From positions 1 to 45,338 of the forward strand of contig JALSMA010000048.1 in NCBI GenBank assembly GCA_026988015.1: DNA of 45,338 bases. Direction: 5' to 3'. Every line of letters begins with the position of its first letter. Position 1 is the first letter of the stretch. Both the position numbers and the translations under genes were made by a program. A model generated the notes under the pieces. The model was not told where the DNA came from and ran no database searches. It worked only from the letters and a program-made list of their open reading frames with translations. Shown here one piece after another: positions 13,290 through 25,608 of the stretch. The DNA is from Desulfobulbaceae bacterium. GTDB taxonomy: Bacteria; Desulfobacterota; Desulfobulbia; Desulfobulbales; Desulfocapsaceae.

Positions 13290-14711
13290 TCATCGCCTGA
13301 ATTGATCACCATTTATACTATACCGACGAATTATTTTCTGTAAAGCAGCCCGGGTCAGATTGGATAGACGTGCTGCTTGAGATATATTTCCATTACACTG
13401 CTCAAGCAAATGATGGATGTACTGTCGGGTAAAAGAATCCAGACAGGATTCTTTCGCCTCTTTATAAGGAATGATACTCTCTCCATATCCCTGATTCACG
13501 GGAACACTCGAAGACGATAACGAGGATCTGAGTTGCAGATGTTTCTCATCAATGACAGGGCCCGGACAGAAAAGAACGGCCCGACGGATCACATTCTGTA
13601 ATTCCCTGATGTTTCCCGGCCAGTTATGTTGCAGTAGGGGGTCCAGTGCAGTTTCTGAAAGCACTTTTTCCCCATTGTTAAGTTCGGAAAGTGCTGTTTT
13701 TAAAAAGAAATTAGCCAACAGAGGGATGTCCTCCCGTATCTCGACAAGAGATGGCATACGCAAAGTGAGAACCTCGAGACGGTAATATAAATCTTCCCGA
13801 AAAATACCTTCTGCTATTTTCTGCTCAAGATCGGCATTGGTTGAAGCAATAATGCGAACATTTATTTTTATGGAAGCAGTAGTTCCCAGCGGTTTTATTT
13901 CCTGCTCTTGAAGAACTCGCAGCAATTTAGTCTGGAGACCGACAGGAATATCTCCAATCTCATCTAGACAAATAGTCCCGCCATTGGCCTGAGAAAACAA
14001 TCCTGCATGATCTTTATCTGCACCGGTGAATGCTCCTTTTGTGTAACCAAAAAGCTCGGACTCAAGCAGATTCTCCGGTATTGCAGGACAGTTTACCATA
14101 ATAAAAGGTTTTGCCGACCGTGGGCTGAGACTATGTATAGCCCTAGCACAAAGCTCTTTACCTGTTCCAGATGCTCCCCGGATAAGAATAGTATACTCGC
14201 TTTCAGCTGAAATTTTTATGGATTCGTAAAGATGGTGCATTGCAGGACTTTGACCAATAAATTCAGGAATCATCCTTGCAGAGTCAACTCTGCTGCGCAA
14301 CTCTTTGTTTTCAAGCAGGAGCCTGCTCCGTTCCAGTCCCTTGCGGAGGATTCTGGTCAGGTTGTCAAGATCCAAGGGCTTGGTCACAAAATCCCAGGCT
14401 CCACGACGAATGGCATCCACAGCCAGTTCGATTGTGCCGTAGCCAGTCATCAGAATTACTGTCTGCTCGGGATCATCAGTGCAGATATGGCTAAGGGTTT
14501 CAAGACCATCCATATCACCCATCATGATGTCCATCAGAATTAGGGATACATCTTGTTTCTGCAGAACTTTTAGTGCTTCCTCACCACTTGTTGCGCTGAG
14601 AATTTCCACTTCTGGTAGTCGTTTGGTAAAGGCTCGTCTTAAACCGCTGAGCAGGTCAGGTTCATCATCAACAAGCAAAATTCTATCAATAAAAGGAAAT
14701 GGCTTATTCAT
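13290..14711 (-). CDS. Sigma-54-dependent response regulator (NtrC family)
   Basis: A 473-residue NtrC-type activator from ATG 14711. Receiver domain at residues about 8 to 120 (RILLVDDEPDLL; phosphoacceptor Asp in LILMDIMMGDMDGL; Lys in VTKPLDL). AAA+ domain with Walker A GASGTGKELCARAI, the sigma-54 contact loop ELFGYTKGAFTGADKDHAG, and Walker B GGTICLDEIGDI. A Fis-type helix-turn-helix closes it (NISQAARLSNLTRAALQKII). The GAFTGA loop is intact, so it should open sigma-54 promoters. Its ATG overlaps the end of the histidine kinase by 8 bases, so the two form a coupled two-component pair. Targets are unknown; I found no clean -24/-12 site nearby. Confidence 0.95.
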   Translation of the reverse strand: MNKPFPFIDRILLVDDEPDLLSGLRRAFTKRLPEVEILSATSGEEALKVLQKQDVSLILMDIMMGDMDGLETLSHICTDDPEQTVILMTGYGTIELAVDAIRRGAWDFVTKPLDLDNLTRILRKGLERSRLLLENKELRSRVDSARMIPEFIGQSPAMHHLYESIKISAESEYTILIRGASGTGKELCARAIHSLSPRSAKPFIMVNCPAIPENLLESELFGYTKGAFTGADKDHAGLFSQANGGTICLDEIGDIPVGLQTKLLRVLQEQEIKPLGTTASIKINVRIIASTNADLEQKIAEGIFREDLYYRLEVLTLRMPSLVEIREDIPLLANFFLKTALSELNNGEKVLSETALDPLLQHNWPGNIRELQNVIRRAVLFCPGPVIDEKHLQLRSSLSSSSVPVNQGYGESIIPYKEAKESCLDSFTRQYIHHLLEQCNGNISQAARLSNLTRAALQKIIRRYSINGDQFRR

Positions 14712-17196
14712 CGGTGACGCTCTCCAGTAACATAGGTAAAATAACTGTAAAGCATGATCCATGCCCGGGGTTTGACTGCACCCGTATCTCACCACCATGT
14801 TCTCGTATTATGCCATAACTGACGGATAGGCCAAGTCCTGTTCCCTGGCCGGAAGACTTGGTGCTGAAAAAGGGGTTGAAAATCTTCTCCATAATTTTCT
14901 TTTTAATTCCTACGCCATCGTCTTCTATATCTATAAAGATTTCTCCATCCTCAGATCGGGTACTGATTGAGATTTTCCCGCCGCTGCCAATTGCATGTAT
15001 ACCGTTCATTATCAGATTCACCAGTACCTGTTGAATACGCCTGTTGTCTATTAAGCAATGAGGTAATTTATCATCCAGGTTCAGCTGAAGGTTGATCTGG
15101 TTTTTCTTGAATTGCTGGCTGATCATCGAAATGACGCTTTTAATGGAAACATTGACAGATTCCGGTTGTGGTTTCAGTCCATGCTCTCCACTGTGTGAGA
15201 AGTCGAGTAGATCAGCTACAATTCGCTTACAGTTTTCTGCATGTCGTTCAATTATACAGATATCACTATATATCTCTTTATTATCCTTATTCTCTTCTTT
15301 TATTATATCTGTATGGCAGAGAATTACCCCGAGAGGGTTGTTAATCTCATGTGCTACACCCGCGGCTAGTTGGCCAACGGCCACAAGCTTTTCCGTCTGC
15401 TGAATTCTCTGTTCTGTTTCCTTTATAACACTGACATCTTTTGCAAGACAGACAATGGCCTGGACCGAATCGTCCTTGTCTAAAATCGGGTAAAAAGAAA
15501 TCACAAATGTTGAACCATCGTCCAGTTGAACCTCTTTTGCATGCTGCTCTTCTTTCACCAAATTCAAGCTTTGAAATTGCCCACTGAAAAGACACTGTTG
15601 ATTTAGGGAAATGGTTTCAATGTTCTTTCCTAAGACATCGGCAGCTTTCAAATTATTTCGCAGCAAAAAACTCTGATTAGCCATTTGCAGACTTCCATCA
15701 GGTGCCAGGAGAATTAATGGATCACTTATACCTTCAAACACAGACTGAAGCAGTGCTGTACTCTGTCGCAGGCTCTGCATATTCTGCATACTTTCAATGG
15801 TCAGGCCGATTTGTTGCCCAATGGAAAGAAGAAGTTCCTGCAGTGCATCATCTAGCATCTCACACCTGAGCTCGGTGATGTGCATAATTCCAAGGAGGCG
15901 ATTTCGACAACTGAGTGGAATACTTACATTAAGCATATCATATTGTTCTGCAGGTACAGTCCTGATCTTATCGAGCTCAATGCTATCCTGGTGTGGTTCA
16001 AGCATTGGTGCCTTATCAGTCGTTTGTAAGGTGTATTTGTTTGTCTTAGTGTCATATAGGTAAATCCCAGCACCTTTACCAGGAATAACCTGCAGGGCCT
16101 CTTGCAGAACCCGCTGTAGTGTTGTTTGTAACTCGTCCGTACTGGTTATGAGACTGGTCAGGGTGTTGTGCAGGGATAACTCCTGATTTCTTTTTTTTAC
16201 CTGTTTCCTTGCTCGATTTTCAGACAGTTTCAGGGCTTCCGTTCGCTCTGAAACAATGATTTCAAGGTTATCCATATGTTTAACTAGGCTGGACCGGCTT
16301 TCCTGCAAATCTCTTACCAGAGTTCTGGCACTACGAAACAGTTCTTCAAGTTCTTCTTTATGCCCCTTGATCCTGTGTGGTAACTCCTGATTTTTATTGT
16401 CTCCCAGGGTTGTGCGAAAAAGAGTCAGCAGATCCTGAAGGTTTGTTATGATAAGCTGATGGAAAAGGACCCAAATGGTGAAATAGAGTAGTAATGCAAG
16501 AATCAAAACTGCCCCGAACATCCGAAAAGCTCCCCTCCATATTTCGGCAAGACTCTCTTCCAGGGGGATGGAAATGGAAAGAATACCACCTGTTTCGTTG
16601 TCATTGCGGTGAAATCCTCTTGATTCTCCGTAAGACATTTTAATGGCTGAGGGTGCATTTTCAGGTTCACCGTGGCAGTGCATGCAGGAAGTATTGAAAA
16701 CAACGGGGCGATATAATGTAAAGTATCGTTTTGACTCCAGCCGTCTAACCGTATGCCACTCAGGTTTTGCAGGGTGGGTACGAAAATACTCTATCATTCT
16801 AATTTCTTCTTCGTTTGCCTCATAGTCAGGATTCCTTGCATTTATTGCTGCGCGCCGATATTTGAAATCGGGTAGGGCATCTTTAAAACGGTCCATAATG
16901 ACTCTGGTAATATATGAAGTTGACATAGCCTCAATGATAAACTGGTCTTCGCCCAGTTCTTCGTACATACGTGGCCGTAATACCTCACGGATATAGCTGC
17001 GGGTAGACTCGAGAGACATCATAACCAACTCGGTCTGTCTGAAGGTTTCTTCTTCGAGCAGGTTCTTCTGGAAATGATAAATAAATGTTGTCGTAAAAAG
17101 GCAAAAGCAAAAGAGTATAATTCCCAAGCCGACTTGAAATCGTAACTTGAGGTTATGCTGATCCTTATCTGCCAGATCTCGAATAATGTCTCTCAT
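14704..17196 (-). CDS. Haem-sensor histidine kinase (DUF3365-GAF-PAS-HisKA-HATPase)
   Basis: 830 residues from ATG 17196. Order: membrane segment (about 20 to 40); periplasmic DUF3365/Tll0287-like domain with a c-type haem motif CMHCH at about 171 to 175; second membrane segment (about 227 to 250); HAMP-like linker and coiled coil; GAF domain (about 360 to 490); PAS domain (SVFEGISDPLILLAPDGSLQ); HisKA with GQLAAGVAHEINNPLG (His near 613); HATPase_c with NLIMNGIHAI, IEDDGVGI and GTGLGLSVSYGI. Tll0287, the structural model, binds haem covalently and is thought to sense redox state or a ligand. It is coupled to the NtrC-type regulator downstream. Its sensor closely resembles that of the kinase at 23893-25608. 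Confidence 0.93.
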   Translation of the reverse strand: MRDIIRDLADKDQHNLKLRFQVGLGIILFCFCLFTTTFIYHFQKNLLEEETFRQTELVMMSLESTRSYIREVLRPRMYEELGEDQFIIEAMSTSYITRVIMDRFKDALPDFKYRRAAINARNPDYEANEEEIRMIEYFRTHPAKPEWHTVRRLESKRYFTLYRPVVFNTSCMHCHGEPENAPSAIKMSYGESRGFHRNDNETGGILSISIPLEESLAEIWRGAFRMFGAVLILALLLYFTIWVLFHQLIITNLQDLLTLFRTTLGDNKNQELPHRIKGHKEELEELFRSARTLVRDLQESRSSLVKHMDNLEIIVSERTEALKLSENRARKQVKKRNQELSLHNTLTSLITSTDELQTTLQRVLQEALQVIPGKGAGIYLYDTKTNKYTLQTTDKAPMLEPHQDSIELDKIRTVPAEQYDMLNVSIPLSCRNRLLGIMHITELRCEMLDDALQELLLSIGQQIGLTIESMQNMQSLRQSTALLQSVFEGISDPLILLAPDGSLQMANQSFLLRNNLKAADVLGKNIETISLNQQCLFSGQFQSLNLVKEEQHAKEVQLDDGSTFVISFYPILDKDDSVQAIVCLAKDVSVIKETEQRIQQTEKLVAVGQLAAGVAHEINNPLGVILCHTDIIKEENKDNKEIYSDICIIERHAENCKRIVADLLDFSHSGEHGLKPQPESVNVSIKSVISMISQQFKKNQINLQLNLDDKLPHCLIDNRRIQQVLVNLIMNGIHAIGSGGKISISTRSEDGEIFIDIEDDGVGIKKKIMEKIFNPFFSTKSSGQGTGLGLSVSYGIIREHGGEIRVQSNPGHGSCFTVILPMLLESVTDE

Positions 17197-17610
17197 TCCA
17201 AAACTCCAGGTTGTAAATAATAAAGAGCAAGTGGTGCTTCCGTAAGTATACACTATCCAGTATTCATTTGTATACTCTAGTATGCACCCTCTGGCTCTTC
17301 CGGGCAGGCTACCTGAACATTAGTGGCCTGATGGGACCGTGATATTAGCTAGTTGGTGATTTTGTCATCTTTTGAATAAATCAGGAACGTCATTTGCAGC
17401 TGACGTAAGCCGAGGCCACTTAACCTTGATATGCTTGTGAATAGTAGAAATTTAGATGGTCAGGTAAAAACCCTCAGATGCGAGGCGCATACTTTGTTTG
17501 TTTAATTTTGTGGTACCACGGTGCGTCGTATTTAAACAAATAAATGCTGGAATGTCACAGTAAGGAATTTTAAAGACATCATCAACATCATACGTTGAGG
17601 AGAAATCACC
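17197..17610. other. Divergent control region between sensor kinase and transporter module
   Basis: About 410 bases separating the histidine kinase (minus) from the small membrane protein and YeiH-like gene (plus). It contains two short perfect inverted repeats, at 17478-17490 and 17510-17519, listed separately. I searched by eye for a sigma-54 -24/-12 element and saw only sites with wrong GG-GC spacing (for example near 17292 and 17512). No gene is supported. Confidence 0.5.
17478..17519. promoter_or_regulatory. Paired inverted repeats, possible regulator sites
   Basis: ATGCG-AGG-CGCAT at 17478-17490 and the palindrome GTGGTACCAC at 17510-17519, centres about 30 bases apart (three helical turns) and 90 to 130 bases upstream of the small membrane protein start. 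This is the place where upstream activator sites of NtrC-type regulators usually lie, but the two repeats differ in sequence, so a shared protein is not shown. Confidence 0.25.
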
Positions 17611-17886
17611 ATGCAACGAACATTTATTGTACCTACTCTGGTTCTATTCGGAATAATAGGGCTCTGTTTTCTGATGGCAACCACGAAGCTGTTTGATCCG
17701 CTGATTGTCTTCATCCATACTGGAGTTATTAGCCCTACACAGGCGGTACTTTGCCTCATCTTTACGGTAGGAGGTTTTGCTGGCTATTTTTACCTGTTAA
17801 ATCTTATTTGCAGTTATTTCGTCCCTCGCATTAAAGCAGAGGACAGAACCAAAAGAAATATTAAAGGAGGATTAACACAGCAATGA
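17611..17886 (+). CDS. Small membrane protein upstream of YeiH-like transporter
   Basis: 91 residues with two hydrophobic segments (TFIVPTLVLFGIIGLCFLMA and a second near 45 to 70, CLIFTVGGFAGYFYLLNLIC) and a positively charged C-terminal tail (PRIKAEDRTKRNIKGG), which suggests the tail is cytoplasmic. GAGGAG is placed well before the ATG. I know no family for it. It is 49 bases upstream of the YeiH-like gene, which has its own strong ribosome site, so the two are likely co-expressed, and it may be an accessory subunit. Confidence 0.75.
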   Translation: MQRTFIVPTLVLFGIIGLCFLMATTKLFDPLIVFIHTGVISPTQAVLCLIFTVGGFAGYFYLLNLICSYFVPRIKAEDRTKRNIKGGLTQQ

Positions 17887-17935: not shown

Positions 17936-19564
17936 ATGTCTAAAGTAAAAGAGCAGATGCCCACTCTGATAATGGGTGCGGGATTACTGGTTTATGGGCT
18001 TATTGCACAATCTGGTGCATTGTTACCTATTGCACAATACCTGCATACCCATAAGACTTTGGATTTACAGGTTACCATGTGCCTGATAGTTGGTTGTATT
18101 GCACTTGCTGGAGCTCTTGTTAATTCTGTTAGAAAACCAGGGCATTCCAATCTAGATACATTTATCCTGCAGCCCCTTGGCGGGATTGTATTAATTCTAG
18201 TGATGGCAATGCTTATTCGTTGGTATGCAGAACCGTTGATGAAGATTATAAGTCAATCTTTGCAGCCAATTCTTGGCTTTAAAATCTATAAGGTTTTAAA
18301 TCTCAACTATGTTGTCCTTGGAATTCTGGCAGGAGTTGTGTTGACAAATACTTGGGGAATTCCTAAATTTGCAGCTCCTGGAGTGAAATGTGCCCGCTTT
18401 GTTTTAAAGATGGGTGTCATTATGCTTGGTGCTCGCTATTCATTTGCCGAGCTTGCAAAACTCGGTGTATACTCTGTCTTTCTCGTTGGATTCTTCGTAC
18501 TCGGTACGGTTTTTCTGGTTTTGTGGTTGGGAAATATTTTCAAACAGCCTAAATCCATGACCGGCGTTCTTTCAGCAGGAATGGGTGTTTGTGGTGTTTC
18601 GGCCACTGTTGCTGTAGCACCTGTTGTAAAGGCAAAATCTTCTGAGATGGCTTATACTATAGGAACAATTCTTTCTTTTGGTATTGTCTGCATGTTCATC
18701 TTCCCTACAATAGGAAAGCTTGCCGGCATGAGTCCCGTACAGTTTGGAGCATGGGCGGGTACTGGGATTTTAAACTCTGCCCAGGTTGCAGCGGCAGCAC
18801 TGGCTTTTAATGCTGTAGATATTGAAACCCTGAAGGTTGCTGAAATATTCAATATTACCAGGGTTCTCTTTCTGCCCATTATCGTCCTTGTCCTGGCCAC
18901 TTGGTTTGGGAAGGAATCCGGACATAAGTTAAGCTTCAAAACTGTTGTTATTGATAAGTTTCCGGTTTTCATAATTGGTTTTCTTATTCTCTTTTTCTTG
19001 TCCTCAATTGGAATGTTCTCTCCCCCAAGTCATTATAAAGGAAAGTATATAGATGTTTCTTATAATGACCGTACTCAAGTTACTCATGAAGAGTGGGAAA
19101 CATTAAACAATGCCATTGCAGCTGGCGAGTTTTCCGGACTGACTCCAAAGCAACTTGAAGCAGTAACTGACCTTGTTAAACAGCGCCAGGTAGCAGGAAA
19201 CTTTGAAGATCGTGGTAATAAAAAGGAGTTTGACCATGTTGGTCGGGCTCGAATGACGCAGCTCGAAGGTATTCTTGCAGCTGCTAAAGCGAAGCAGATT
19301 CAATTATCTGCCGATGTTAAAAGTGCAATCAAACATGCCGTTAAACAGGTACATAAAAAGTCAAAAACAGTTGTTACTCTCACTGACTTTATGATCTGGT
19401 TTTTTGCCTTTGGGTTAATCGGTCTTGGTATGCAGATCACCAAAAAATCAATTACTCAGGCAGGCGGGTGGCCTATTGTTATGGGTGTAATTGCCGGAAT
19501 TACCAAAGCAACACTTTCATTCTTCGTTGTTCTCTGGCTAATCAAGGATGTTGTTTTAAATTAA
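17936..19564 (+). CDS. YeiH-family (UPF0324, Cons_hypoth698) membrane transporter with large insert
   Basis: 542 residues, against about 350 for E. coli YeiH. The core is clear: CARFVLKMGVIMLGARYSFA, then the signature SMTGVLSAGMGVCGVSATVA, AYTIGTILSFGIVCMFIFPT and GTGILNSAQVAAAALAFNAV. The family is annotated as putative sulfate/sulfite or sulfonate-linked exporter, with little direct proof. Odd here: about 110 extra N-terminal residues with several membrane segments, and a soluble insert of about 100 residues (near 360 to 465, starting at SHYKGKYIDV, rich in Lys, Gln and Ala) before the last three membrane segments. AAGGAGGAATTAG gives an excellent ribosome site. It is flanked by two tiny membrane proteins in one transcript. 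Confidence 0.85.
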   Translation: MSKVKEQMPTLIMGAGLLVYGLIAQSGALLPIAQYLHTHKTLDLQVTMCLIVGCIALAGALVNSVRKPGHSNLDTFILQPLGGIVLILVMAMLIRWYAEPLMKIISQSLQPILGFKIYKVLNLNYVVLGILAGVVLTNTWGIPKFAAPGVKCARFVLKMGVIMLGARYSFAELAKLGVYSVFLVGFFVLGTVFLVLWLGNIFKQPKSMTGVLSAGMGVCGVSATVAVAPVVKAKSSEMAYTIGTILSFGIVCMFIFPTIGKLAGMSPVQFGAWAGTGILNSAQVAAAALAFNAVDIETLKVAEIFNITRVLFLPIIVLVLATWFGKESGHKLSFKTVVIDKFPVFIIGFLILFFLSSIGMFSPPSHYKGKYIDVSYNDRTQVTHEEWETLNNAIAAGEFSGLTPKQLEAVTDLVKQRQVAGNFEDRGNKKEFDHVGRARMTQLEGILAAAKAKQIQLSADVKSAIKHAVKQVHKKSKTVVTLTDFMIWFFAFGLIGLGMQITKKSITQAGGWPIVMGVIAGITKATLSFFVVLWLIKDVVLN

Positions 19565-19946: not shown

Positions 19947-20420
19947 ATGTTTAGCAATATCCTGCTCTGTACGCATGGTACTGATGGGGCACAAAAAGCA
20001 GAATCATTGGTTTTTAGAAAACAGGAATCGGTACCCGACATGGTGGTCACTGTACTCACTGTACTGGATGAAGACTGGCGCCAGATGACGGGTGATGACT
20101 GGCTGAATTCGAGCAAAACACACACTGTTTTTCTTGATCACGTTGAAGAGCAGATGAATGAGGAGATAGCGGAAGAATGGCAACGTATAAAGAAACATTA
20201 TCCACTTGCAACCCAGGCCAAATTTGTCCAGAGAACAGGGAATATCTCAGAAATAATTACGAAAACCGCTAGGGAACTGCACTGTGACCTTATCGTTATC
20301 GGTCCCTGGACCAGAAGAAAAAAATTCTCCATACATAGCACCGGAATGGGGCTGCGGTCCACAATGAAAAACAAGGAGTTACATCCACTGTTACCATGTC
20401 CTCTTCTTATAGCTCCATAG
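19947..20420 (+). CDS. Universal stress protein (UspA family)
   Basis: 157 residues with the Usp fold: opening strand MFSNILLCTHGTDGAQKAES, a central helix pair, and the closing CDLIVIGPWTRRKKFSIHST followed by CPLLIAP. The ATP-binding pattern G-2x-G-9x-G(S/T) is not present, so this is probably a non-nucleotide-binding member. No obvious Shine-Dalgarno site. It is the first of a run of signalling genes on the plus strand and overlaps the start of the next ORF if that ORF begins at its first ATG. A Usp domain also occurs inside the kinase at 21186-23132. Confidence 0.85.
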   Translation: MFSNILLCTHGTDGAQKAESLVFRKQESVPDMVVTVLTVLDEDWRQMTGDDWLNSSKTHTVFLDHVEEQMNEEIAEEWQRIKKHYPLATQAKFVQRTGNISEIITKTARELHCDLIVIGPWTRRKKFSIHSTGMGLRSTMKNKELHPLLPCPLLIAP

Positions 20421-20983
20421 ATACCATTCCTCTAAATGTCACAGAGGAAATAGATTTGGGGCTGCATCAATTCCCCCTTGCTTTTGACTTGCAATCTCTT
20501 TTTCCAGGAGATCGCTTGCTTCGTCTGCACCCGAACTGGTTTGTTTCTGGTTTTGAACAGGATCAATCATCCTTCACTGTCACCATTAAAGATTACGTTA
20601 CTGATGATGAATTTCTGCTATCAGGAAGTTTTCTTTTTAATGCCAATAAAACTGAATTGCTGCACATCCAGCTAATTGATCCTATAGATACGAAAATCTC
20701 TTTTTTAACTCGTGATGGTAAGTTGCTGGTTCAGATTTACACACATGAGAAAATTAATGCTGATGATCCTCTCCTGCTGTGGATACGAGCAATAAAAGAA
20801 TATATTCGCATCTACCTCAAAAAAACGCCAGGGACTCTTTTCTTCCGTTTCTTGATGAATAAAGTTTTGTTGAAAATGGATCCTTCTCAGCGAAAGATCA
20901 GCCTGATGATAGCAAAAATTACTGCTGTGGAAATACTTGTTATTCTCCTTATTGTAATTGCGTACGTCATCTTTGTTCTTTGA
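20396..20983 (+). CDS. Tail-anchored protein of unknown function
   Basis: Up to 195 residues. The first ATG (20396) overlaps the Usp gene by 25 bases and lacks a ribosome site; TTG 20456 has AGAGGA 7 bases upstream and avoids overlap, giving 175 residues, and looks the better start. The body is soluble, with beta-strand-like text (FTVTIKDYVTDDEFLLSGSF, ISFLTRDGKLLVQIYTHEKI), and ends in a single membrane segment (VEILVILLIVIAYVIFVL) with almost nothing after it, so it should be anchored with its bulk in the cytoplasm. No family recognised. About 200 bases separate it from the kinase gene. Confidence 0.65.
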   Translation: MSSSYSSIDTIPLNVTEEIDLGLHQFPLAFDLQSLFPGDRLLRLHPNWFVSGFEQDQSSFTVTIKDYVTDDEFLLSGSFLFNANKTELLHIQLIDPIDTKISFLTRDGKLLVQIYTHEKINADDPLLLWIRAIKEYIRIYLKKTPGTLFFRFLMNKVLLKMDPSQRKISLMIAKITAVEILVILLIVIAYVIFVL

Positions 20984-21185: not shown

Positions 21186-23132
21186 ATGGCTTTTCCAGAA
21201 GTCGGTGATACTCTCGATATCTTCACTATTATTTCGAAGCTCCATGACGGTGCGCTGACCACTATTTTTTTAGCTGAAGATCAACTTACACGTGAAGAAG
21301 TTGTTTTGAAGATCCCCTGTGGCGATATCCTGAATAAACCTATCATTCTCTACCACTATCAGAACGAAGAGAGAATAAGCAGACGGATCGAGCATCCAGG
21401 GATTGTACGTTTTATACACCGTCATAGAAGCAGACAATACCTTATAATGGAGAAACTTTCCGGGAAGGATCTGCGTGCAGAAGTTGGCACAAACCACATC
21501 CTCGAACTTCACGATGCCCTTGTTCTTATGAAGCAACTTTGTGAAATAGTAGGGTATCTCCACAAGCAGTCAATTGTCCATCTAGATTTGAAGCCCGAAA
21601 ATATACTCCGGCTGAACAACTCAACAATTAAACTGATTGATTTCGGTCTGGCCAGTTGTGCATCTCTTCCTGATCTCCTCACACTTGACTTCCAGAATCC
21701 TCAGGGAACGCCTTGGTATATTGCCCCGGAACAGCTACTTGGGGAGAGGGCTGATCCGCGATGTGATATCTATTCAATGGGGATGATATTATATGAAATG
21801 TTCACGGGAAAATTACCATGGCCGCGCTCCAGTAAGCTCAACACTGCCCGTCGCCGTTTGCGCCATGACCCGATTCCACCGCGTTACTACCAACCGGATA
21901 TACCGCCACAAATTCAGTCAATCATACTCCGTGCCCTTTGTCGTCATCCATCGGATCGTTACAGTTCAGTCCCTGATTTACAGTATGATCTAAATTACTG
22001 GCGTCAACTGCCTGTAACACCACAGGGTACAAACAGCAGGAAGCCTTCTATCTGGAAACGAATTTTTCCCGGAAAACCTGTACAGCTCAATAGCTCACGG
22101 TACCAAAAAACAAAACTCTTAAAACGCAAACCACAAATTGTTGGTGCTTTGATTGATTCCTCGACTAGTCACGATATGTTAATGGAAGTTCGTAAGCAGG
22201 CACTCATCCACTCTGCTGAGATCACCTTGGTTCACGTTATTCAGGAAGAGAGTGACCCACACACAACACATTACGGGATTACTGTTGAGGGTGAAGAGTT
22301 GATGGCAGAATTTGAGAGAAGTGTCCAAAATCTCCGTAGATTCAGTATTGATCCAAGTATCCGTATTATTCGCGGAGATCTTATTGATGTCCTGGAGGGA
22401 CTATGCAGGACTTTGGAGGCAGACCTGTTGGTTCTGGGAACATCTCGCAAAGAAAAGAGTCTCCTCCGCGGTGCATCTGTACGGCGCCGTTTGGAAAGAA
22501 GGAAAAATTTTCTATCCAAGGTTACTGTTGCTGAACAGGAGCTATTTTCTCCGGTGACAGACTTAAGAAACCTGCAACCAGAGAGTCTCACCGAGCAGCA
22601 GGTACTGTCATGTGATATTTTTCTGGTGGATCTCTGGTTCGAACAGCTCCATCTGCATACCGAATTTATCTATAAACTCCTTCTCCAGCAGGAACAGAAA
22701 AACGACTCATATGTGGACAATTGCCGACTTGGCCAGTTTCTAGAGTCCCTTGAAAAATCGGAGTGCTGGAATCATATTTGGTCCATACTGGATTTGATTC
22801 ATCGGCAATTTCATAGTATCACCACGAAAATGTCAAAGGTTTCACCTTCTGATCACACAGCTCTTCAGAATATCTATACTCTTGAGTCACTGCCACTGGC
22901 ATGTACATTTAAAAAATCATTGGGACAGGTCTCCAGGATCCTGCGAGCCAGACTTGAAGAGAAACCTCCTCCGGTACCTTTTCTCGTTGATACCTCCTGC
23001 CCGGTTACCATGCCGTATCTTGCCTGTTACGGCCCGCTGTTGCGCGCCCTGACTCTTGACCGGGATCTTTGTGTTCTGATAGAAAAGAACTGTACCCGGC
23101 TTTCCAACTCTGGATTGAGTGGAGTCCACTAG
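21186..23132 (+). CDS. Ser/Thr protein kinase fused to Usp-like and CZB-like zinc-binding domains
   Basis: 648 residues, no membrane segment seen. Residues about 8 to 275 are an intact-looking Hanks-type kinase: Lys42 in VVLKIP, catalytic loop HLDLKPEN (Asp134), IDFG (Asp152), GTPWYIAPEQ, and CDIYSMGMILYEMFTGKLPW. Residues about 314 to 440 are a Usp-type domain (VGALIDSS, LEADLLVLGTSRKEKS) without the ATP-binding glycines. Residues about 475 to 545 match the chemoreceptor zinc-binding (CZB) pattern: His489/His491, NCRLGQF with Cys513, and HRQFH with His539 and His543. CZB domains bind zinc through three His and one Cys and sense zinc or oxidants such as HOCl. GGAGGGG lies before the ATG. The phosphoesterase ATG follows its stop directly. 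Confidence 0.9.
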   Translation: MAFPEVGDTLDIFTIISKLHDGALTTIFLAEDQLTREEVVLKIPCGDILNKPIILYHYQNEERISRRIEHPGIVRFIHRHRSRQYLIMEKLSGKDLRAEVGTNHILELHDALVLMKQLCEIVGYLHKQSIVHLDLKPENILRLNNSTIKLIDFGLASCASLPDLLTLDFQNPQGTPWYIAPEQLLGERADPRCDIYSMGMILYEMFTGKLPWPRSSKLNTARRRLRHDPIPPRYYQPDIPPQIQSIILRALCRHPSDRYSSVPDLQYDLNYWRQLPVTPQGTNSRKPSIWKRIFPGKPVQLNSSRYQKTKLLKRKPQIVGALIDSSTSHDMLMEVRKQALIHSAEITLVHVIQEESDPHTTHYGITVEGEELMAEFERSVQNLRRFSIDPSIRIIRGDLIDVLEGLCRTLEADLLVLGTSRKEKSLLRGASVRRRLERRKNFLSKVTVAEQELFSPVTDLRNLQPESLTEQQVLSCDIFLVDLWFEQLHLHTEFIYKLLLQQEQKNDSYVDNCRLGQFLESLEKSECWNHIWSILDLIHRQFHSITTKMSKVSPSDHTALQNIYTLESLPLACTFKKSLGQVSRILRARLEEKPPPVPFLVDTSCPVTMPYLACYGPLLRALTLDRDLCVLIEKNCTRLSNSGLSGVH

Positions 23133-23873
23133 ATGCGTTTAATGATCTTTTCTGATATTCATGGCAACCTCGAAGCTCTGCAAAGTGTATTTTCTGATGC
23201 CGATAAACGAAACATACACAGGAGTATTTGTCTGGGTGATCTTGTAGGATACGGGCCCTATCCAAACGAGTGCATAGAACTGGTTAAAAAGAGAAAAAAC
23301 TGTCGATGTCTTGCAGGAAATCACGATGTGGCAGCACTTTGGGAAACCTCTCCCTATGGAATGTCAAAGTCTGCACAGGATGCAATCCTCTGGACTATGG
23401 AACAGCTAAGTGATACGAACAAAAAGTATTTACAAAGTCTGCCCGACCGGATTGATCTTTTTAATATGACATTTGTTCATGCCAACCCATATAACCCCAG
23501 AGGGTGGCGCTATATAACGGATCGCAAATATGCGCTGCGAAGTTTCTCTGCTACCAGTTGTCAGTATCTTTTTATTGGACACAGTCACAAACCGCTGGTG
23601 ATTACCAGGAAACGTTTTTTCTCGATCGACTTTCAAAAAGTATCAGGGCCACAAAAGATAACCATAAAAGACCAGAGACGGTATATTATTAACTGTGGGA
23701 GTGTGGGGCAACCAAGAGACAATAATCCAGATGCCTGTTATCTGGTTTTTGATATCCTCAGCAACAGATTAGAGTATTACAGGGTACCGTATGACTCCAA
23801 AAAAACAGCCCAGGCAATTCGTTTATTCAAGTTACCGCCAGCCACAGGAAGACGTTTGTTGAAAGGAACGTGA
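23133..23873 (+). CDS. Metallophosphoesterase (calcineurin-like)
   Basis: 246 residues with all family motifs: FSDIHGNLEAL (D-x-H), LGDLVGYGPYPNE (GD), LAGNHDVAAL (GNHD), FVHANP and IGHSHKP (GHxH). Such proteins bind two metal ions and cleave phosphate esters; relatives act on phosphodiesters, nucleotides or phosphoproteins. Its ATG follows directly on the stop of the Ser/Thr kinase and 19 bases separate it from the next kinase-like gene, so it may be the phosphatase that reverses their action. That role is inferred from position only. Confidence 0.9.
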   Translation: MRLMIFSDIHGNLEALQSVFSDADKRNIHRSICLGDLVGYGPYPNECIELVKKRKNCRCLAGNHDVAALWETSPYGMSKSAQDAILWTMEQLSDTNKKYLQSLPDRIDLFNMTFVHANPYNPRGWRYITDRKYALRSFSATSCQYLFIGHSHKPLVITRKRFFSIDFQKVSGPQKITIKDQRRYIINCGSVGQPRDNNPDACYLVFDILSNRLEYYRVPYDSKKTAQAIRLFKLPPATGRRLLKGT

Positions 23874-23892: not shown

Positions 23893-25608
23893 ATGAAAAT
23901 AAAGCGATATTGCCACGGAGCCACCCCCAACCTCAAACAACGATTTCTTTTCTGGTCAGCGTTTTTGTTAATCGGAAGCGGTTTCATTATATCTATACTT
24001 TCTTTCTGGAACACCCGGCGACTTCTCATGGCTGATGCAATGACAAAGTCTGAAGTAATTCTTCGTGAAGTTGAAGCAATCCGTTCCTATGTGAAGGAGG
24101 AATTACGACCTAAAATGTACGAATTGCAGGGCGGAGACACATTTGTTATCGAAGCTATGTCTACCACATATATCAGTACTCGTATCATGAAACGGTTTGC
24201 TGAATCCATGCCCAATTACACATACAGAAGGGCCTCACTCAACCCACATAATCCAGACAATATGGCAGATCCTTTTGAAGAGGAAATGCTGGATTGGTTT
24301 GAAAAAGATCCCAACCGTCTATTTTGGCAGGGAGTAATTAAAAAGAATGGTGACTCTTTTTTTATTTCTATCATCCCTGATTATTTTGAAGCATCCTGCA
24401 TTCGGTGTCATGGTAAGGCAGAAGATGCCCCTAAAGAATTAACAGATCGATACGGAATAAATGGTGGATTCCGTTTTAAAGCAGGTGATCTCGCAGGTAT
24501 TAACTCTGTGGCAATTCCAGTCTCCGATTCCCTTCGTGAAGCCTGGCAGGGTAGCTTCGTTCTTTTTGCCGTTACTTTGGGGGGTACTCTTCTTCTGTTA
24601 TGGCTTCTAATGCTTCTCTTTCAACGTCTGGTAATAGAACGCCTTGGTGTCATGCTCTCGCTTGTGGCCCAAAAAGGTAACGAAAGCAAAACTATTACCG
24701 GTGATGAGCTTGATGTGTTACAAGCCTCTCTCGGTTCTTTGCGAAATTATGTTCGTTCTGCTCGGAAAGGTTCTTCACTTGAACCTAATTTTATTGGTAA
24801 CTACATTGTAAATAAACCGATTGCTGCTGGTGCCATGTCGTGGTTGTATAAGGGGCATACAACTGACACAGGCGAAATGGTATCTCTTAAAATCGGTTTT
24901 GATGAAACCATGCAGAACCCATTATATCGATCTTGCTTTGAATCAGAGCTGCACTTTTTCAAGACATTATCACACCCTTGTCTACCCAAGGTGAAAGAAC
25001 GTGTGGATGATGTTCTGGTCCTTGAAGAGGTTTGTGGGAGAAACCTTTTTCATTATCTTGGAAATGGAGGGCTGGAGAATAGGTTCCTTCTTCCTGTTTT
25101 TGCGCAGCTATGTGATATGATCGCATCTTTTCATGCCGTCGGAATGGTCCACCATGATCTTCGTCCACAAGTACTAATATTGGATACCAGGCAACAGCTG
25201 AGCCTTATCGATATGGGACTTGCCTCAAGCGATCAACATCAGGACCCGATTACGGCTGCTGGACTAGGTCCTCAGGGTGATTTGCTGTATCTTGCACCGG
25301 AACAGATTCAAGGAAAACGTGGCGATTCACGCAGTGACGTTTATGGAATAGGTCTGTTGCTGTATCTTGCTGTGACTGGTCACTTTCCCTTCTCAGATAC
25401 AAGGAAATCTCCCAGAAACTGGCTGCGGCACAAGCGACAGATTGAAAGCCCTAGAACATATCGTCCTGAATTGCCGGAAGCTCTGGAACAGATTATGCTT
25501 CAAGCATTATCCTATGATATCGATACTCGTTACCAGTGGGTAGAAGATATGTGGGATGAACTGGCAGCACTGAACAAGCGAGCGCCTGAGTTTTTTTCTA
25601 TGTCATGA
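23893..25608 (+). CDS. Haem-sensor protein with degenerate Ser/Thr kinase domain
   Basis: 571 residues. Membrane segment (about 16 to 38), periplasmic DUF3365/Tll0287-like domain with haem motif CIRCH at residues 169 to 173, second membrane segment (about 220 to 245), short linker, and a Hanks-type kinase fold from about 298 (YIVNKPIAAGAMSWLYKGH; Lys333; CDMIASFHAVGMVHHDLRPQ; YLAPEQIQGKRGDSRSDVYG). In the catalytic loop the usual HRDLKPEN is HHDLRPQV: Asp422 is kept but the conserved Lys and the metal-binding Asn are Arg and Val; DFG is DMG (Asp440). It may be weakly active or a pseudokinase. CAGGAG precedes the ATG. The sensor is a clear relative of that in the histidine kinase at 14704-17196 (shared IEAMST-Y, SY-(R/K)E-LRP-MYE). 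Confidence 0.9.
   Translation: MKIKRYCHGATPNLKQRFLFWSAFLLIGSGFIISILSFWNTRRLLMADAMTKSEVILREVEAIRSYVKEELRPKMYELQGGDTFVIEAMSTTYISTRIMKRFAESMPNYTYRRASLNPHNPDNMADPFEEEMLDWFEKDPNRLFWQGVIKKNGDSFFISIIPDYFEASCIRCHGKAEDAPKELTDRYGINGGFRFKAGDLAGINSVAIPVSDSLREAWQGSFVLFAVTLGGTLLLLWLLMLLFQRLVIERLGVMLSLVAQKGNESKTITGDELDVLQASLGSLRNYVRSARKGSSLEPNFIGNYIVNKPIAAGAMSWLYKGHTTDTGEMVSLKIGFDETMQNPLYRSCFESELHFFKTLSHPCLPKVKERVDDVLVLEEVCGRNLFHYLGNGGLENRFLLPVFAQLCDMIASFHAVGMVHHDLRPQVLILDTRQQLSLIDMGLASSDQHQDPITAAGLGPQGDLLYLAPEQIQGKRGDSRSDVYGIGLLLYLAVTGHFPFSDTRKSPRNWLRHKRQIESPRTYRPELPEALEQIMLQALSYDIDTRYQWVEDMWDELAALNKRAPEFFSMS

Follow-up and report, generated by a model that had tools for sequence, protein, structure and literature searches.

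A Hanks-type kinase joined to a Usp domain and a CZB-homologous domain in a conserved gene cassette of Desulfobulbales

The stretch of DNA analysed here (the window, 45,338 nucleotides of a Desulfobulbaceae bacterium) encodes a single protein in which a Hanks-type kinase is followed by a Usp domain and then by a C-terminal domain homologous to CZB (PF13682), and I hold, with slightly better than even confidence, that this is a soluble Hanks-type Ser/Thr kinase whose C-terminal regulatory domain descends from a CZB zinc sensor, with the Usp domain between the two. At the level of sequence, the three modules, the homology to CZB, the conservation of the fusion in Desulfobulbales relatives and the conserved cassette of genes around it are all established. 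The parts of the protein, with their positions in the window, are as follows.

21186 to 23132, plus strand: kinase-Usp-CZB fusion, an open reading frame of 648 aa (ORF call, Pfam, orthologs)
21228 to 21965, plus strand: Hanks-type kinase domain, residues 15-260 (Pfam Pkinase, E 3e-42)
22146 to 22451, plus strand: Usp domain, Pfam match over residues 321-422 (E 4.4e-6)
22593 to 22955, plus strand: CZB-homologous four-helix domain, about residues 470-590 (Pfam, hhalign, predicted fold)
22644 to 22646, plus strand: codon of Gln487, at the column of the canonical first zinc-binding His (DgcZ His22) by hhalign, structural alignment and Pfam position 1
22650 to 22658, plus strand: His489 (22650-22652) and His491 (22656-22658), both off that column
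22722 to 22724, plus strand: Cys513, the canonical CZB cysteine, in CRLGQFL
22800 to 22814, plus strand: His539-x3-His543, the canonical pair of His ligands
22956 to 23129, plus strand: C-terminal tail with mostly conserved Cys605 and Cys614 (CPV...LACYGPLL), modelled with low confidence from residue 608

That three modules share one chain had been claimed in an earlier reading of the letters alone (the sequence-only reading), and Pfam bears it out with matches to kinase, Usp and CZB, in this order, within the one 648-aa frame. The features by which a Hanks-type kinase is recognized (a catalytic Lys, HxDxKxxN and DFG) are all present as K42, HLD134LKPEN139, where HLD replaces HRD, and D152FG, and K42, D134, K136, N139 and D152 are kept in every one of the 35 readable kinases among the 36 distinct sequences collected. 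In VIA, the full-length model finds PknB as its top match (Z 26.3, rmsd 2.6, 249 residues aligned); since the matches of this model in fold searches are all kinases and so uninformative on the CZB part, residues 464-600 were folded alone for the CZB fold comparison. The organism's own genome has three Pkinase matches, and only two of these score over the cut-off, both within the cassette. The Usp module scores 27.7 bits against a cut-off of 24 and was found at E<=0.001 in 21 of 21 relatives scanned. Nucleotide-binding Usp proteins carry the pattern G-2x-G-9x-G(S/T), from which the motif of the window protein, GTSRKEKSLLRGAS, as read in the sequence, departs. When compared with the nearest relative, L004, dN/dS is low throughout (kinase 0.13, Usp 0.13, CZB 0.15), and this, together with the hhalign match of the CZB part described below, supports the fusion as more than a chance joining.

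The relatives were gathered by several searches. One of 56 genomes, the organism's own included, returned matches at E<=1e-20 in 34 genomes, and the family taken from it runs from L003, which is the window itself, to L016; a contig scan gave 20 named loci from Desulfocapsa, Desulfobulbaceae, other MAGs, Desulfosarcina cetonica JCM 12296 and Ca. Desulfobulbus rimicarensis; and a search of 242 genomes of the order found the CZB domain and tail in 29. The resulting 64 sequences became 36 distinct ones once contained copies had been removed. In a sample of 395 genomes from the phylum, with up to six candidates scored per genome, only the match of the window genome, among the matches listed, spans Usp and CZB, and the fusion therefore looks confined within the sample to the order Desulfobulbales, bar one record named Desulfosarcina cetonica. 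This record (L048, strain JCM 12296) holds the cassette and is placed by NCBI in the order Desulfobacterales, not Desulfobulbales, pointing to either a transfer or a misassigned record.

The sequence-only reading had also taken the third module to be a relative of CZB and proposed a profile search as the check; the search gives a match, at 27.0 bits and E 5.8e-6 for residues 475-555 alone, 22.0 bits and E 2.1e-4 for residues 495-545 within the whole protein, and 26.6 bits in a search of the whole genome, all of them under the Pfam gathering score of 29.4. Among 21 relatives scanned, 11 match CZB at E<=0.001 and 10 fall below that level. Homology is borne out further by hhalign, with which an alignment of 33 kinase-linked C-terminal domains (A6, the 36 distinct sequences minus L014, L015 and L052, where the domain is absent or cut) was compared with one of 20 classical CZBs drawn from genomes within the phylum (A5, 20 of the 27 domains found in 20 loci); the two match with a probability of 98.2% and E 5.7e-14, and the 110 matched columns extend from helix 1 through to the helix at the C terminus. 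The A5 loci were hand-picked among CZB matches, and because the pattern used to locate their domains demanded H, C and HxxxH, ligand conservation in A5 is by construction. When only the 20 Desulfocapsa-type rows are used (A7), the match to A5 is at 96.4% and E 1.1e-9 and starts just ahead of the Cys motif, with helix 1 unaligned.

It is these profiles that carry the homology, and the predicted fold agrees with them without proving it. The AlphaFold (AF2) model of residues 464-600 (pLDDT 87.5, pTM 0.83) has helices at 470-500, 509-512, 514-521, 526-550 and 557-587, and its top re-aligned structure in VIA-align is 3t9o_B, the CZB domain of DgcZ (Z 11.2, rmsd 2.8, 113 of 120 residues); the fold is no proof because other four-helix sensor bundles come within 1 of this Z, which lies in a range that helical bundles commonly reach according to the tool, and because Foldseek alone found no PDB match at E<=0.001 for the same model. 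With the CZB segment as query, phmmer found no match among PDB sequences up to E 10. One could take the tied Z, the Foldseek result and the sub-threshold Pfam score to mean that a four-helix bundle unrelated to CZB makes up the C-terminal region and resembles it by chance, but an hhalign E of 5.7e-14 with ligand columns lining up, and relatives that carry the full HxxW-C-W-HxxxH set, leave that reading close to refuted. A second CZB match in the genome, at 55.9 bits, lies in a 599-aa ORF that by eye looks like a chemoreceptor whose CZB sits near the N terminus. Residues 556-648 of the fusion gave no Pfam match, and the tail cysteines Cys605 and Cys614 (window 22998-23027), with no known domain around them, may form an extra redox or metal site.

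Canonical zinc-binding CZBs are characterized, in the part of the CZB survey cited here (PMC8262984), by a 3His/1Cys core and a CX(L/F)GXW(Y/L) motif, and the window protein departs from both. Its motif reads CRLGQFL, with Phe518 in place of a Trp that is found at this column in L016, L044, L045, L048, L049, L052 and L071-L079, and the canonical first-His column falls, by hhalign, on residue 487, which is Gln, so that the core is incomplete at the canonical columns. In L071, L075 and L079 it is the His of this same column that takes Pfam position 1, followed by a Trp at +3, a spacing shared by many classical CZBs, and the structural alignment starts with model residue 9 (= 472) against residue 7 of 3T9O, which therefore puts DgcZ His22 on 487, provided that helix 1 is ungapped. 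The ligand set of the window is Q487, C513, H539 and H543, or 2His/1Cys, plus the off-column H489 and H491. The sequence-only reading had placed His489, His491, Cys513, His539, His543 and the change of the motif Trp to Phe518 correctly in the sequence, and in the zinc-ligand set that it drew from them Cys513, His539 and His543 are indeed canonical; His489/491 are not, since the canonical column is occupied by Gln487, and the agreement of hhalign, structural alignment and Pfam position 1 rules them out as the canonical first ligand. His491, one helical turn after that column, is a possible substitute ligand, and in the window species either His491 replaces the first His or a weaker site of 2His/1Cys is left.

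How the site fares across the family was scored in 33 distinct rows at columns 487, 513, 539 and 543. The full quartet of H487, C513, H539 and H543 is present in 23 rows, Q487 with the C, H and H kept in two (the window and L004), other ligands are lost in seven, and one (L052) is cut after the Cys; column 487 holds His in 28 of the 33, and a canonical HxxW...C....W...HxxxH is intact in six relatives that are 38-42% identical (L071, L073-L076 and L079). A tree was built from 33 rows with a readable CZB and L014, in which CZB is absent, L015 and L072 having been dropped as each is cut by a contig end; on this tree, a quick search with 10 open forks among 31 inner branches and two long branches (L016 and L081) that meet, five lineages have a changed site, and three of them lost two or more ligands. 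L051/L069 lost every ligand, L011/L012 lost Cys and His543 (L012 having Tyr at 487 as well), L005 lost both His of HxxxH, L077/L078 lost His543 alone and window/L004 lost His487 alone. Loss of Cys513 is always joined by loss of His543 (two events on the tree), and wherever His539 has gone His543 has gone too (two events), as expected of ligands that form one site; independent-pair tests of joint loss had two pairs only, which puts significance out of reach.

Rates of change were compared as ratios of CZB to kinase divergence, from amino-acid distances between pairs that I chose, with L046 used twice. The CZB of the window lineage looks constrained because its ratio (1.42 for window/L004) falls within the range of pairs with a complete site, 1.20-1.58 in seven of eight and 2.84 in the very close eighth, as against about 2.5 in the ligand-loss pairs L005/L007 (2.58) and L051/L069 (2.49). 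The ratio is 1.44 for L011/L012, in which Cys and one His are lost and CZB is no faster, and 1.68 for L077/L078. With small numbers and non-significant pair tests, the pattern favours a real ancestral zinc site that some lineages have let decay and that remains under constraint in the lineage of the window, and a zinc-gated Hanks kinase is well supported as the putative ancestral state of the family.

The same pattern can be read differently, in that the CZB-homologous domain may by now be a zinc-independent dimerisation or docking element, here and perhaps in much of the family, with its Cys and His as relics, a reading that I would take seriously while doubting it. It would account for Gln at the canonical first-His column of the window, for ligands that changed in five lineages with the kinase intact (and the cassette too, where fetched), for an ortholog (L014) that manages without the domain, and for the 20 Desulfocapsa-type rows, where none of the ligand columns is invariant and helix 1 holds 11 of the 23 invariant columns. 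It accounts less well for three of the five lineages losing two or more ligands together, as a real site would, and for Cys513, His539 and His543 all being kept in the window and L004 at the ordinary CZB rate (1.42), unlike the rate of about 2.5 in L005/L007 and L051/L069. Zinc sensing is dispensable for the cassette, because seven of the 33 rows have lost other ligands and L014 has no CZB. The zinc gating proposed by the sequence-only reading would fit the CZB family, and has repeated ligand changes beside an intact kinase as evidence against it.

Gating by hypochlorous-type oxidants, offered in the same reading, is without specific support because the Desulfocapsa-type relatives are free-living, sulfur-cycling anaerobes of sulfidic sediments, not host-associated bacteria, and because recent work points to labile Zn2+ instead. 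In the part cited of this 2026 preprint (PMC13370339), labile Zn2+ is argued to be what CZBs sense, as a stand-in for redox and O2, and is preferred as the messenger. Direct sensing of HOCl or other oxidants by the kinase via Cys513 would follow what has been proposed for DgcZ and TlpD, for both of which the cited part of PMC8262984 reports direct oxidation of Cys by HOCl, and the cysteine column is common to classical CZBs; with four of 33 rows carrying Ser or Trp instead of the Cys, in addition to the habitat and the preprint, I find this very improbable.

The descent of the domain from a CZB zinc sensor, which I prefer, gains its setting from the neighbouring genes.

13290 to 14798, minus strand: sigma-54-dependent response regulator
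14704 to 17253, minus strand: divergent sCache_heme/PAS histidine kinase
17611 to 17886, plus strand: 91-aa membrane-type protein, no Pfam match
17936 to 19564, plus strand: PF03601/YeiH-like transporter, the most conserved cassette protein (E 6.3e-49)
19947 to 20420, plus strand: stand-alone Usp protein (Pfam, E 3.3e-9)
20396 to 20983, plus strand: 195-aa protein with a C-terminal hydrophobic segment, no Pfam match
23133 to 23873, plus strand: metallophosphoesterase, directly after the kinase stop codon (Metallophos_2, E 1.4e-15)
23893 to 25608, plus strand: second Hanks kinase, with a Tll0287/sCache_heme domain (CIRCH) (Pfam)

The core of the cassette runs from the YeiH-like transporter through Usp, 195-aa protein, fusion kinase and metallophosphatase to the sCache_heme Ser/Thr kinase, and gene order is that of the window at every one of the 20 named loci. 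The 195-aa gene and fusion kinase are present at all 20, stand-alone Usp, metallophosphatase and sCache_heme Ser/Thr kinase each at 19, the transporter (75-95% identical) at 16, the 91-aa protein at 14 and the divergent sCache_heme histidine kinase at nine; where any of the six genes from transporter to second kinase is missing, this coincides with the end of a fetched stretch. At L044 the 1.27 kb read on the upstream side of the 91-aa gene held no match to the histidine kinase, and at L051, which retains the transporter-to-second-kinase part with every ligand lost, no match to the 91-aa protein was found. The transporter cassette is also present at five of seven further loci (L123, L124, L125, L128 and L129), with kinase and phosphatase only at L126 and the kinase without phosphatase or transporter at L127, and it is conserved in relatives that are about 40% identical. 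L014 (L128), an ortholog from the same genus in a like-ordered cassette, has kinase and Usp without CZB and is thus a natural deletion, its ORF ending after Usp and running straight into the phosphatase. Between the 195-aa gene and the kinase, where the window has only about 200 bases, Pfam finds a radical SAM/SPASM gene in L124 (4403-5503), L125 (7555-8670) and L129 (6921-8036), an ORF of this kind was read by eye at the same spot in L034 (3447-4586), and L038, L039, L046, L047 and L051 have gaps of about 1.1 kb. For a sigma-54 promoter pattern the window has 21 matches where 24.1 would be expected, which is no signal.

YeiH is reported to confer sulfite resistance in Salmonella in the part of PMC12880088 cited. 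The window transporter has 542 aa with a family match confined to 118-362, and it is a divergent family member, scoring 96.9 bits against TIGR00698, where the cut-off is 232.6, so that sulfite export is only a lead. The Ser/Thr kinase at 23893-25608 and the histidine kinase at 14704-17253 share the sCache_heme (Tll0287) type of sensor, of which the genome holds seven domains, and NO-sensor properties are described for sCache_heme domains fused to signalling modules (PMC12889525, in the part cited).

In the mechanism that I would propose, the CZB part would serve as input and dimerisation element of a cytosolic kinase, Zn2+ occupancy of its 3His/1Cys site would depend on labile zinc, sulfide, oxidants or O2, and this occupancy would alter the packing of the helical dimer and thereby the activation of the kinase in trans. 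Probable local targets would be the YeiH-like transporter, the stand-alone Usp or the 195-aa protein, the adjacent metallophosphatase may reverse the phosphorylation, and the sCache_heme Ser/Thr kinase may provide a second (NO/redox) input. The boldest version, in which CZB would drive protein phosphorylation in place of chemotaxis or c-di-GMP in a zinc/redox-gated class of Hanks kinases, this class, paired with the heme (NO/redox) kinase and the phosphatase, would govern a YeiH-like exporter of sulfite in bacteria that disproportionate sulfur or reduce sulfate, and the first ligand of the window protein would have moved from His487 to His491, retuning the sensor, is in my view unlikely as a whole.

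With the CZBs of Escherichia coli DgcZ and Helicobacter pylori TlpD the fusion shares profile homology and the Cys and HxxxH columns, and its predicted four-helix fold, tied with other bundles in the comparison, agrees, whereas a Hanks kinase with Usp takes the place of GGDEF or MCP as output, and the window protein has Gln for the first His and Phe for the motif Trp. Kinase and Usp in one chain are already known from Ser/Thr kinases of Mesorhizobium, Bradyrhizobium and Nitrosomonas, which belong to other lineages, and for which the cited part of PMC1262709 mentions neither CZB nor zinc; the Nitrosomonas protein, unlike the fusion, is of the ABC1 family with an N-terminal Usp. KdpD, as an atypical serine kinase, likewise has its activity in a chain with Usp as input (UspC, c-di-AMP), but is fused to histidine-kinase parts, and CZB goes unmentioned in the part of PMC11018627 cited. 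With the sCache_heme (DUF3365/Tll0287) sensors the likeness lies in the neighbouring histidine kinase and Ser/Thr kinase, not in the fusion itself, and their outputs as described in the cited part of PMC12889525 are histidine kinases, MCPs and GGDEF/EAL proteins, with no mention of a serine or protein kinase. Novelty of the architecture, which the sequence-only reading had suggested, agrees with the survey of 10,140 CZB sequences, since none of its seven subgroups, in the part of PMC8262984 cited, is a Ser/Thr kinase. The literature search found no report on CZB with threonine kinase, nor on CZB with zinc and Usp.

CZB domains are known for their input to chemotaxis and c-di-GMP signalling and, if the proposal is true, zinc/redox sensing would extend to protein phosphorylation in anaerobic sulfur bacteria. 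Because the cassette holds both of the over-cut-off Hanks kinases in the genome and adjoins a transporter of a sulfite-resistance family, only a small number of inputs and candidate targets comes into question, and these can be tested directly; the relatives, whose zinc sites range from intact through partly lost to absent, provide a natural series of mutants.
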